The position numbers and the translations under genes are program-made. Of a stretch of 64,000 bases of DNA, positions 17,873 through 21,414 are shown piece after piece; within the stretch, counting starts at the first letter, position 1; every line of letters starts with the position of its first letter. The DNA lies in NCBI RefSeq assembly GCF_014697375.1, contig NZ_JACJRS010000017.1, forward strand, positions 1 to 64,000. Reading direction: 5' to 3'. The DNA comes from Phormidium sp. FACHB-1136 (lineage in GTDB: Bacteria; Cyanobacteriota; Cyanobacteriia; Phormidesmidales; Phormidesmidaceae). The notes beneath the pieces were generated by a model. The model had not been told where the DNA came from. It searched no databases and saw nothing but the letters and a program-made list of their open reading frames with translations.

Positions 17873-18030
17873 CTAGGCCGATAGGCGGTGGATAGGGACA
17901 ACGGGGGGGGCGGCGTAGGTGGGCAATTCTGCGGGAACGAGAACGGGATCGGGGAGATAGATTTCGATGGGCTGGGGCAACCGTTCCAGCGGGTTGATGA
18001 AAATAACTATCCCTTTGCCATTGCTCTTGG
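17873..18030 (-). pseudogene. Possible gene remnant next to a repeat insertion
   Basis: On the reverse strand a coding-like frame reads about 50 residues ending LPTYAAPPVVPIHRLSA and a TAG at 17873-17875, only five bases from the stop of the DUF3685 gene. Upstream it runs straight into the palindromic repeat at 18031-18119 with no start codon. It could be the tail of a gene truncated by the repeat, or chance. The gene-free stretch 17868-18234 contains this and the repeat only. Confidence 0.25.
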
Positions 18031-18119
18031 CCCTCACCCCTGCCCCTCTCCCTCAGGGAGAGGGGTTCTGAATCTGGCTCCCCTTCTCCCTCAGGGAGAA
18101 GGGGTTGGGGGATGAGGGC
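18031..18119. repeat. Dispersed G/C-rich palindromic repeat, two-hairpin form
   Basis: CCCTCACCCC is followed by CCCCTCTCCC-TCA-GGGAGAGGGG, a spacer, then CCCCTTCTCCC-TCA-GGGAGAAGGGG and finally GGATGAGGG. The outer ends are also complementary. The same type appears at 41289-41334 and 49573-49666. Such repeats are spread widely in filamentous cyanobacteria; the mechanism of spread is not visible here. Confidence 0.7.
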
Positions 18120-18234
18120 CAAGACTGGACGCTTTATTCATTGGATTACTCTAATACATATGAGTACATATGAGTTACTTGCTAATGTGAGATGCCCCCG
18201 ATCTATTTCTGTCTCACTGTGTTGTTTTCGGGGG

Positions 18235-19704
18235 CTACGATGTCCTGAATTTTCGACTCATCGAGGTGCCCTGTGGTTGATCTTCTGGATCAATCTGCGT
18301 GGGCACACTGGTCGGTGGCCAAAGGTGCTTGAACCGATCTGGAGCTAAGGCCCGCCACACCAGCACACCACCCACCGCAATGGTGAGTCCTAGGGCACCG
18401 CCGAGGACCCAACCCGGTAGCTGGGATCGCAGACTCGGTTGGGGCTTACTGGGCAAGGTGTGGCGCTGAAATAGTTCATCGGAGAGCCAACTGACGATAC
18501 CGCTCAGGTTGTGGACGGGGTTGGGCAGTAGGCTGAGGTAGGTGCCCTGGCGAATCAGGTGGCCGCTGCGTCCGGTGATGGCGATGCGATCAAACAGGTT
18601 GGCGGCTCCCTCGGCTTGGCCGAGCTTGATCAGGGTGCCACGCAGGGAAACCTGGACAGGCTGGGGCGACTGGTGGTGAACCAAGGCTTTGAGATTGCTG
18701 GCGATGGCGGTTCCCTGTTGGTAGGCCACCTGAGCCGTGGCGGGCTGGGGCGCATCGAGCACGGTGCAGTCGCCCCCAGCAAACACGTTAGGATAGCCCG
18801 GAAGTTGGAGGGTGGGTAAGACTCGCAGCCGTCCGGCCTGGTCTTTTTGGACATTCGGCAAGTCGGCGATGACGGGATTGACCCGATTGCCTGTCATCCA
18901 GAGAATCGTGTAGGTGGGTAGGGTGTGGGTATGGCCTTGGTCTTGGCCCGGATCTCGGTAAACCAGATGATCGGCGGCGACCTGAACAGCTGCTCCGGTG
19001 AGGAACTGAATCGGCACCCATCGGTTTTGCAAGGCCCGCTGCACCGTATTGCGTAGGCCGCTGTTGATGTCACCCTTGAGGATGTTGGGGCTACGGTTGA
19101 CGATCACAATCTTCAGTTCGTTGACCAGACCTGTAAATTGACTGGCCCACTGGGGCAAGAGATCGCCCAGGGTCGCCGCCATTTCTACCCCCGCTGGCCC
19201 TGCCCCGATGATCGCCACCGTCAGCAAGGCTCGCCGCTGGTCTAGATCCTGGGTTTGGCTGGCCCGCTGAAGGCATTGGCGCAGGTGGCGGCGCAGCTTG
19301 GTCACATCTTCTTCGGTGCGAAAGGCGAAGACGTGGTCGTTCACCCCCGGAATGCCGAGATCGTGGACGGTGCTGCCCAGTCCCAAGATCAGGTGCCCGT
19401 AGGAATAGCGATGACCTGAGGCCAGAATCACAGCTTGGCTGGCTAGGTCGATGCGATGTACCGCGCCGTGGATAAAGGTAATCTCATCGCCGTTGAGCAG
19501 GGTATCGTAACGGGGCCACACCTGCGCCTCGGTGAGTTCGCCGCTGAGGAGTTCGTAGAGCAGCGGTTTGAAGACAAAGCGATCACCTTTATCGATCAGC
19601 ACTATGGGCCGAGGATGGTGCTGGCGGCAGAGGTGCATGGCGGTGAACAGGCCCGTAAACCCGCCGCCCACAATGATGGTTGGACGTGTTGACCCGGCTG
19701 ACAT
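18235..19704 (-). CDS. Type II NAD(P)H dehydrogenase (NDH-2)
   Basis: A 489-residue flavoprotein that transfers electrons from NAD(P)H to quinone without pumping protons. The FAD-binding GxGxxG is seen as IIVGGGFTGLFTAMH near the N terminus. The second Rossmann motif is AIIGAGPAGVEMAATLGDLL, and the later FAD contact is VFAGGDCTVLD. A single C-terminal transmembrane helix (WVLGGALGLTIAVGGVLVW) anchors it to the membrane. Start chosen at the ATG at 19704 (MSAGSTRPTIIVGGG), preceded by GGAAA, since longer frames add 33 non-conserved residues. It is divergent from the Cys-repeat protein gene. Confidence 0.9.
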   Translation of the reverse strand: MSAGSTRPTIIVGGGFTGLFTAMHLCRQHHPRPIVLIDKGDRFVFKPLLYELLSGELTEAQVWPRYDTLLNGDEITFIHGAVHRIDLASQAVILASGHRYSYGHLILGLGSTVHDLGIPGVNDHVFAFRTEEDVTKLRRHLRQCLQRASQTQDLDQRRALLTVAIIGAGPAGVEMAATLGDLLPQWASQFTGLVNELKIVIVNRSPNILKGDINSGLRNTVQRALQNRWVPIQFLTGAAVQVAADHLVYRDPGQDQGHTHTLPTYTILWMTGNRVNPVIADLPNVQKDQAGRLRVLPTLQLPGYPNVFAGGDCTVLDAPQPATAQVAYQQGTAIASNLKALVHHQSPQPVQVSLRGTLIKLGQAEGAANLFDRIAITGRSGHLIRQGTYLSLLPNPVHNLSGIVSWLSDELFQRHTLPSKPQPSLRSQLPGWVLGGALGLTIAVGGVLVWRALAPDRFKHLWPPTSVPTQIDPEDQPQGTSMSRKFRTS

Positions 19705-19901
19705 CGAGGTTTCCTTGAACGCACAGGTTGATGATGACAGGGCGATATGAGAGCGTCCTGAGTCACGGCTCAACGGTGCATGAGGGGCTTGCTCTCTCAT
19801 CAAGTTCTCAGCTTAGGTTCAGGCGCACTTCAGAGGGGTTCTGTTAGCTGATAGTCAGCGAGGCTTACGCCGTTTTTACCCCATCGACAGGCACCCCAAC
19901 C

Positions 19902-20279
19902 ATGAATTTTCAATTCAAGTACCTTGCGATTCTGGCCACCATCGGAGCCATCGGCATGGGCGCAGTCGCCGCTGGCAATGCCCCCTCTGGAGCCAACCCC
20001 TGTGCGGGCAACACTTCGGGCGTGGTTAACCCCTGCGCCGGAGCCAATCCTTGCGCCGGAAATCCCTGTGCGGGCAGCAAAGCGAATCCTTGTGCATCGG
20101 CAGACCCCTGTGCATCGGCGAATCCCTGTGCGGGCAAAGCGAATCCTTGCGCGAGTAAAGCTGACCCCTGTGCTGGAGCGAACCCCTGCGCATCGGCGAA
20201 TCCCTGTGCGGGCAAAGCGAATCCTTGCGCGAGTAAAGCCGACCCCTGTGCCGGGGCGAACCCTTGCGCCGGAAGCTAA
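19902..20279 (+). CDS. Secreted low-complexity [N/D]PCA-repeat cysteine protein
   Basis: A 125-residue protein with a signal peptide (FKYLAILATIGAIGMGAVAA, residues 6-25) and a mature part made almost entirely of 14 units of [N/D]PCA[G/S], each with one cysteine, separated by short Ala/Lys/Gly spacers. The regular Cys spacing resembles metal-chelating or thiol-buffering peptides, including bufferin-type ribosomal peptides that are often encoded beside DoxX genes; this link is an inference. No DUF692-type maturation enzyme gene is in the window. The coding DNA contains a 78-bp tandem duplication. The gene is followed after 69 bp by doxX, probably in one operon. Confidence 0.8.
   Translation: MNFQFKYLAILATIGAIGMGAVAAGNAPSGANPCAGNTSGVVNPCAGANPCAGNPCAGSKANPCASADPCASANPCAGKANPCASKADPCAGANPCASANPCAGKANPCASKADPCAGANPCAGS
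20130..20275 (+). repeat. 78-bp in-frame tandem repeat in the NPCA gene
   Basis: A unit of 78 bp (26 codons: AGKANPCASKADPC then AGANPCASANPC) is repeated almost twice with only a few silent differences. The repeat arose by in-frame duplication and changes the number of cysteines. Confidence 0.65.
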
Positions 20280-20348
20280 GCGCCTGCTCCAGCCCTGTCT
20301 CCACCTATCGCTAAACCGATTCTTGCCATTCCTTTTTGAGGTACACCC

Positions 20349-20789
20349 ATGTTCCGTGCTGCGCCCCGTTCCACCGATTACGCCCTGCTGATGTTGCGAT
20401 TGGCCACCATTTTTGTGTTTCTCCCCCACGGCCTCAGCAAAGCCTTCAACTGGCCGATGGCGAGTGCTATGTTTGCTGGCATGGGCTTTCCGGGCTGGCT
20501 CGGCCCCATTACGGGCATTGTGGAAGTGATCGCCAGTGTGTTGCTGTTGGTCGGTTTCTTGAATAAGTGGGCCAGTCTGGCCTTTTTAACCATCATGGCG
20601 GCGGCGATTACGGGCGTTCATGTGCCCCTGTCTGTGGCGGCGGGGTCGCCCACCCCCGGCCTAGAGCGCGATGTTCTACTGGTGGCCGCTGTCTTGGTGC
20701 TGATGGCCTTTGGCCCCGGTGCCATTGCCATCGACTCCCAAGCCCCAGCCCTCGCCAGCCCATCCCCCGCCGAACGCAGCTTCCAGTAG
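20349..20789 (+). CDS. DoxX-family membrane protein
   Basis: A 146-residue protein with four predicted transmembrane helices: LMLRLATIFVFLPHGLSKAF, a middle segment with GFPGWLGPITGIVEVIASVL, LAFLTIMAAAITGVH and VLLVAAVLVLMAFG. The LPHGLSKAF and GIVEV features are typical of the DoxX/DoxD family, whose members are linked to thiol oxidation, membrane redox balance or, in bufferin operons, an accessory membrane role. A GAGG ribosome binding site lies about seven bases upstream of the ATG. It sits between the Cys-repeat protein and the cupin gene, all on one strand. Confidence 0.85.
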   Translation: MFRAAPRSTDYALLMLRLATIFVFLPHGLSKAFNWPMASAMFAGMGFPGWLGPITGIVEVIASVLLLVGFLNKWASLAFLTIMAAAITGVHVPLSVAAGSPTPGLERDVLLVAAVLVLMAFGPGAIAIDSQAPALASPSPAERSFQ

Positions 20790-20805
20790 GTTAAAGGCCC
20801 ATTCC

Positions 20806-21414
20806 ATGACGAACCACAACTGGCTTGTCACCGACGACGGACAATGCCGCAACTTCGGGAATGCTAAGATGGCCGCGCCCGCCGAGTACTATCGCCTCTA
20901 CCGCTTCCTCACTGACCTGGAAGACATTTTGAAAGTCACCCACGACGATGTGGCCCGCCTAGAGGCGATTACTCCGCTGGTACGCACGCTGCTAATTAGT
21001 TCCTTCTGGCTCCAGATGGAATACAACAACCCCGACCCCAAAACGGGCTGGAGCGTGCGCTTTCTCTACCAGGAACACGAGTTTCCTATCACCATTCAAA
21101 TGGTGGCCTGGGCACCGAGGCAGCGGTCGCCCATCCACAACCACGGCACCTGGGGTATTGTGGCCCTGCTGGATGGCCAAGAGCGCAACCGCCTATGGCA
21201 ACGCCAACCCGATGCCGACCACCCCGACCGCATTGCCCCCACCCAAGACCTCCTCCTCAATCCGGGCGACATCGTGGCCCTCACCGCCGATGCCATTCAC
21301 AGCGTCGAACCCCTGGGGGATACTCCCACCATCTCCTTCAATCTTTATGGCGTCACCAATTTCCAACAACGCTACGAGTTTGACCCTGACCATCACACCG
21401 CTAAGCTATTTTGA
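20806..21414 (+). CDS. Cysteine-dioxygenase-like cupin
   Basis: A 202-residue cupin. The metal-binding motif reads SPIHNHGTWGIVALLDGQERN, giving two of the three histidines expected in thiol dioxygenases, and the third is in ALTADAIHSVEP. Family members oxidise cysteine or 3-mercaptopropionate sulfur to the sulfinate with iron and oxygen. Substrate cannot be decided from sequence. The start at the ATG at 20806 (MTNHNWLVTDDG) follows doxX after only 16 bases, so it belongs to the same operon; a longer frame overlapping doxX is not credible. Confidence 0.8.
   Translation: MTNHNWLVTDDGQCRNFGNAKMAAPAEYYRLYRFLTDLEDILKVTHDDVARLEAITPLVRTLLISSFWLQMEYNNPDPKTGWSVRFLYQEHEFPITIQMVAWAPRQRSPIHNHGTWGIVALLDGQERNRLWQRQPDADHPDRIAPTQDLLLNPGDIVALTADAIHSVEPLGDTPTISFNLYGVTNFQQRYEFDPDHHTAKLF

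Follow-up and report, generated by a model that had tools for sequence, protein, structure and literature searches.

Why should a cyanobacterium export a small protein built around a string of cysteines, and why should it encode that protein together with a DoxX-family membrane protein and a cupin? The 64-kb stretch of Phormidium DNA analyzed here (the window, to which all unlabeled coordinates refer) contains such a three-gene operon. The answer we favor, at a probability of about 0.48, is that it encodes an exported multi-thiol buffer, which a membrane partner holds in the reduced state and which is switched on when thiols or metals stress the envelope. The three plus-strand reading frames described in a first-pass annotation of this DNA were recovered, with gaps of 69 bp between the repeat gene and DoxX and 16 bp between DoxX and the cupin. 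The features of the locus are as follows:

18235..19707, minus strand: NDH-2-type NADH:quinone oxidoreductase (Pyr_redox_2, 6e-36), divergent from the operon, with an alternative TTG start upstream at 19803
19708..19901, no strand: shared divergent upstream region, nearly identical to that of Leptolyngbya sp. BL0902
19902..20279, plus strand: predicted secreted [ND]PCA-repeat protein, 125 aa with 14 Cys (from the ORF, motif count and dS/dN)
19902..19973, plus strand: putative Sec-type signal sequence MNFQFKYLAILATIGAIGMGAVAA, read by eye from the sequence
19995..20272, plus strand: 14 [ND]PCA[GS] motifs (motif scan), the 3' half with a duplicated 78-bp unit (94% matches)
20349..20789, plus strand: DoxX-family membrane protein, 146 aa (PF07681, 3.8e-13)
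20806..21414, plus strand: cupin with a predicted thiol-dioxygenase fold, 202 aa, with H111, H113 and H165 as predicted iron ligands and S177-N179-Y181 in place of Ser-His-Tyr

The operon is confirmed, and the purifying selection on it is strong. A 158-kb plasmid in Leptolyngbya sp. BL0902 carries a syntenic copy, divergent NDH-2 included, and comparison of the two gives dS/dN values of 0.71/0.032 for the repeat gene, 0.29/0.023 for the DoxX gene and 0.26/0.034 for the cupin gene. Each of the three genes has thus undergone far more synonymous than replacement change, which points to selection on the encoded proteins. No sigma-70-like site was found upstream of the operon in 19708-19901, and no terminator-like site was found for the operon. 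An RNA element in the same upstream region was rejected because its predicted fold is not unusually stable (z -0.46) and an Rfam search of it returned no match. Elsewhere in the window, positions 18016-18130 match several microRNA models weakly, far under gathering scores; these matches probably stem from an inverted repeat, and the stretch translates to PSPSGRGV-like segments.

The repeat protein itself carries 11 NPCA and 3 DPCA motifs, each followed by Gly or Ser. The earlier description of a signal peptide followed by 14 regularly spaced Cys pentads was right about the count, while the regularity is approximate, with successive motifs spaced by 11, 6, 5, 8, 6, 6, 7, 7, 6, 6, 7, 7 and 6 residues (5-11 overall). 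At the DNA level the [ND]PCA pattern occurs 14 times in the window, every time within the repeat gene, compared with a mean of 1.76 in shuffles, none of which reached 14. Codons differ synonymously from one motif copy to another. The duplicated 78-bp unit occupies 20104-20269 in tandem and the motif number is 14 in the window gene versus 11 in BL0902, which together indicate that the length of the array is changing. No family in Pfam or NCBIfam matched the repeat protein, and neither database has a model for the repeat; full-text literature searches turned up no paper about the repeat, DUF6969 or the PCC 7002 genes discussed below. Rhodococcus matches over about half of the query in a plasmid search were taken as low-complexity.

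Homologs of the repeat are widespread: 44 out of 65 genomes from the order have one, as do 36 of 386 genomes of a sample of the cyanobacterial phylum. When public genomes were scanned for the DNA pattern, the matches listed also came from Alpha-, Beta- and Gammaproteobacteria, Rokubacteria and Nitrospinae. A rough pattern sorting of 137 distinct proteins, each with at least four [ND]PC motifs, gave 51 stand-alone proteins, 35 with a YHS domain, 27 with a c-type heme motif, 16 with thioredoxin, 3 with DM13 and 5 others. Across these 137, motifs are most often six residues apart, and the residue after the Cys is Ala in 1166 of about 1244 cases. Pfam confirmed the fused domains in representatives (thioredoxin, YHS, DM13, SoxA/TsdA cytochrome c and cytochrome P460), and a lipobox pattern lies near the N terminus of 26 of the 51 stand-alone homologs.

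The first-pass annotation proposed tabulating the gene neighborhoods of these homologs, and doing so reveals a strong and wide association with the cupin: in the 386 cyanobacterial genomes, 26 of 43 repeat-gene matches lie within 6 kb of a cupin gene against 0.1 expected, these pairs span 23 genomes, 17 genera and 11 families, and the cupin is present in 29 of the 36 repeat-bearing genomes (Fisher p 3e-15). The outcome that the first-pass annotation named as refuting, related NPCA genes with no recurrent link to DoxX or cupins, was therefore not observed. The following fractions are descriptive, because the loci were picked for their resemblance to the query sequence and include some close relatives. 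Within six genes of stand-alone repeat genes, a cupin occurs in 18/25 cases, an FGE-family gene in 10/25, a histidine kinase with a response regulator in 8/25 and DoxX or a DoxX-clan protein in 7/25. Thioredoxin fusions in the first sample have DsbD/CcdA within six genes in 16 of 16 cases and the cupin in 11 of 16. A second sample added three thioredoxin-fusion genes with CcdA (in loci L179 and L231) and two such genes (in L189 and L229) without CcdA nearby, so that CcdA stands beside the fusion gene in 19 of 21 cases overall. YHS fusions have a cupin nearby in just 7 of 34. Two-component or ECF-sigma genes near repeat loci suggest a stress-induced unit, and individual loci add thioredoxin reductase, MerF, MerA, a CopZ-like protein or a DsbA-like protein as neighbors. 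On plasmid pAQ7 of Picosynechococcus sp. PCC 7002, the repeat gene, the cupin, a two-component system and a DoxX-clan gene occur together.

Several further families were seen beside repeat genes. A small secreted protein, cupredoxin-like by eye, adjoins them in Cyanobacteria and an alphaproteobacterium (L083:8180-8713, L172:474-947, L228:2671-3210) and has no Pfam match (L083, L172). DUF3179 genes lie near repeat genes in Cyanobacteria and Proteobacteria (L070, L074, L101, L173, L185, L186, L214 and L232; assigned by Pfam in L074 and L185, by clustering in the rest). DUF6969 proteins, with the motif YYYHAHR.GEHGHFHTF, adjoin repeat genes in Proteobacteria (L173, L181, L182, L185-L187, L213, L219, L228, L232, L236-L239 and L241; assigned by Pfam in L185, by clustering in the rest), where DUF6969 is a possible counterpart of the cyanobacterial cupin.

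The membrane partner varies between genomes. The DoxX identity given earlier is borne out by PF07681 (50.3 bits against a cut-off of 23.6). Like HvfX-type DoxX proteins, the window protein is a small membrane protein of the superfamily with a predicted Cys-rich exported peptide encoded next to it, but it differs from them in scoring 29 bits against the HvfX model NF050144, under the equivalog cut-off of 80. The association of DoxX with the repeat is real but confined to few lineages; repeat genes are found more commonly alongside CcdA and thioredoxin, two-component or ECF-sigma regulators, or an FGE-family lipoprotein. The window-type protein is rare, with matches in 7 of 373 phylum-sample genomes at E 1e-8, six of them at no more than 36% identity, and all four orthologs with at least 67% identity adjoin a stand-alone repeat gene (in the gene calls of one genome, G028, locus L117, the DoxX frame overlaps an antisense ORF). 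At the Picosynechococcus locus a DoxX-clan protein stands in place of the window type. DoxX is therefore a local choice of partner, replaced elsewhere by a DoxX-clan protein or CcdA. In genomes G011 and G012, DoxX relatives pair with NDH-2 instead of a repeat gene; L158 and L159 hold an NDH-2/DoxX pair. The flavoprotein upstream of the window operon has two dinucleotide folds, and its closest PDB matches are NDH-2 enzymes (5kmq, 5e-38).

The cupin is nearest to 3-mercaptopropionate and mercaptosuccinate dioxygenases by sequence and structure. Its predicted model (pLDDT 89) places it structurally among the thiol dioxygenases, the best 43 Foldseek matches all being thiol or cysteine dioxygenases with E down to 1.9e-12. 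The three histidines noted on first reading were found at H111, H113 and H165 and are kept in 63, 64 and 64 of 64 family members, respectively; Tyr181 is invariant among the same 64. Known thiol dioxygenases carry a Ser-His-Tyr triad (PMC10966181), whose His is Asn (N179) in 62/64 members of this family, the window cupin having S177, N179 and Y181. The thiol-dioxygenase label thus held for the fold and the three His but not for the triad, and with Asn in the place of this His, catalysis is not to be assumed from the fold. The carboxylate-binding Arg of Av3MDO is Arg168 (PMC8050391); R189 of the cupin, kept in 63/64, lies in the corresponding C-terminal stretch and aligns with an Arg of MSDO, so that by sequence alignment it may be the counterpart. 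Compared with the 3-mercaptopropionate and mercaptosuccinate dioxygenases of known structure (4tlf, 6xb9, 8vni), the cupin shares the fold (TM about 0.7), the three His, the Tyr and, by alignment, a conserved Arg in the C-terminal stretch, and it differs in its identity of about 25% and in Asn for the triad His. Many genomes have the cupin without the repeat. In several genomes of another cyanobacterial family (L095-L100), its neighbors are genes for cytochrome oxidase (ctaD/ctaE-like), not repeat genes, and the Phormidium genome holds two more paralogs with no repeat genes nearby (G000:C186:16785-17330, 54% identity, and G000:C207:25495-26094, 41% identity; L085, L086).

Among the known systems closest to the operon are the bufferins (Buf1, Buf2, Buf_EGKCG), in which a small exported Cys-rich copper binder is paired with DoxX and some clusters include ECF sigma factors (PMC12452194), as some repeat loci do. 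Kinship with bufferins finds no support. Their precursor types are DUF2282, Buf_6/12Cys and EGKCG, whereas the repeat protein matches no Pfam or NCBIfam family and has no EGKCG motif, and MNIO (DUF692, PF05114) is absent from the whole Phormidium genome by a search that was positive in control genomes. The first-pass annotation, which foresaw a different type of system, had seen no DUF692 enzyme, and that absence holds genome-wide; its interpretation as a whole was partly right. In place of MNIO, the partners are the thiol-dioxygenase-fold cupin, CcdA or an FGE-like protein. With no MNIO and no matching precursor, the operon is not a bufferin system, though it may work like one. A second resemblance is to DsbD/CcdA-thioredoxin relays (SoxV-SoxW and CcdA-CcmG type), since relatives of the repeat are fused to thioredoxin and encoded beside CcdA; the differences are that the repeat domain is undescribed and that DoxX occupies the membrane place in the window.

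Taken as a family, the repeat proteins probably serve the cell envelope as a thiol buffer. For the window operon, the [ND]PCA protein would be exported to the periplasm, where some 14 flexible, closely spaced thiols could buffer thiol-reactive stress, whether from oxidants or from a soft metal (Cu or Hg, for example). DoxX might pass electrons to the repeat thiols from the quinone pool or from a membrane thiol relay, with NDH-2 the likely point of NADH entry, a route from NDH-2 through quinone to DoxX that is suggested by gene order. In other genomes CcdA and a thioredoxin domain would take over the job of DoxX. The cytosolic cupin would be an iron enzyme that oxidizes, or perhaps senses, a small thiol or persulfide belonging to this response. 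The strongest argument for the exported buffer is that the partners interchange, from DoxX to the DoxX-clan protein of Picosynechococcus to CcdA with fused thioredoxin. The regulators, together with mercury or copper genes at some loci, suggest that the system responds to stress, but no single metal or oxidant is consistent across loci. Counting against the buffer, DoxX is missing from most repeat loci and the cupin often occurs without the repeat.

A doubtful alternative is that the repeats scavenge a soft metal, for instance Cu(I) or Hg(II), on the outer side of the membrane, as bufferins or MerP do, with the redox partners serving just to keep the ligand thiols free. The DoxX pairing in bufferin clusters fits such a role, as do the cupredoxin-like proteins in L083, L172 and L228 and the metal genes at some loci: MerF adjoins the repeat-thioredoxin/CcdA operon in L074 and L088, L033, L081, L084 and L092 have a MerA-type gene close to a repeat or cupin gene, and L074 also encodes a CopZ-like protein. 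Such genes occur at few loci, however, and the window operon has none; the motifs, mostly spaced by 5-7, form no CxxC pairs like those in MerP and CopZ, and to our knowledge N/D-P-C-A is not a metal site.

Modification of the repeat cysteines is a serious rival, though not the leading reading for the window. It draws on a PF03781 lipoprotein of sister lineages that lies within 3.5 kb of a cupin or repeat gene at 27 of 38 places in the order. This neighbor is found in many Leptolyngbyaceae and some Alphaproteobacteria (L162:7859-8779, L142:7286-8251, L239:1706-2578 and relatives are examples), related proteins adjoin stand-alone repeats in Thalassospira and a Hyphomicrobiales MAG, and within the cyanobacterial sample the subfamily is restricted to this order at E 1e-40. 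Acting outside the cytosol, FGE turns Cys into formylglycine, as is established for sulfatases, and a neighbor of this superfamily (SUMF1/FGE) suggests that the Cys are modified and do not simply cycle between redox states. The lipoprotein is a candidate Cys-modifying enzyme. The uniform, multi-copy motif agrees with this, as RiPP precursors often have that form, and the repeat Cys would then be oxidized by an enzyme devoted to them (the cupin here, the FGE-family lipoprotein in many genomes) to yield a new post-translationally modified product. We consider this improbable for Phormidium, whose genome has no close homolog of the FGE-like protein (searched at E 1e-40) and whose cupin is cytosolic by sequence. 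Nor is FGE activity confirmed for the lipoproteins, which form a subfamily with its own Cys pattern that is not an assigned FGE, EgtB or PvdO: all of 15 cyanobacterial members keep two Cys close to the C terminus, only one of them is shared with the alphaproteobacterial proteins, and scores fall far under the cut-offs of several SUMF1-like models. An AlphaFold model of the Thalassospira protein has a pLDDT of 32 (two sequences). A broader form of the idea, which we think unlikely, is that the repeat is an undescribed cross-phylum exported Cys module and the substrate of dedicated oxidases (the SUMF1/FGE lipoprotein, the thiol-dioxygenase-type cupin and, in Proteobacteria, possibly DUF6969), which would make it a new class of modified Cys polymer for periplasmic redox proteins.

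It is quite improbable that the repeat Cys carry sulfane sulfur as a persulfide, like SoxY, with CcdA and thioredoxin acting as SoxV and SoxW and the cupin oxidizing the persulfide. DoxX and DoxD are members of the thiosulfate:quinone oxidoreductase family, CcdA and thioredoxin are recurrent partners, and a SoxA/TsdA-type cytochrome c is fused to the repeat in L185, with similar fusions in other proteobacterial loci among the matches listed; the window operon, however, has no sox, SQR or rhodanese gene, and the flavoprotein upstream is NDH-2, not SQR. That the protein is a structural or low-complexity secreted protein with incidental neighbors is very improbable: its low complexity, the absence of an expected fold and the repeat number differing among genomes would fit, but the neighbor association far above chance and the strong selection contradict it.

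Cys-rich buffers that are exported and have redox partners in the membrane are a known theme; the repeat family, its cupin and the FGE-like and DUF6969 partners are undescribed in the literature that we could search. Picosynechococcus sp. PCC 7002, with its pAQ7 locus, makes the repeat system testable at once. The exported buffer would tie several orphan families, namely DUF6969, DUF3179, the FGE-like lipoprotein and the thiol-dioxygenase-like cupin with Asn for His, to a single envelope thiol function, built around a predicted exported multi-thiol module that recurs, alone or fused to other domains, across Cyanobacteria, Proteobacteria, Rokubacteria and Nitrospinae.
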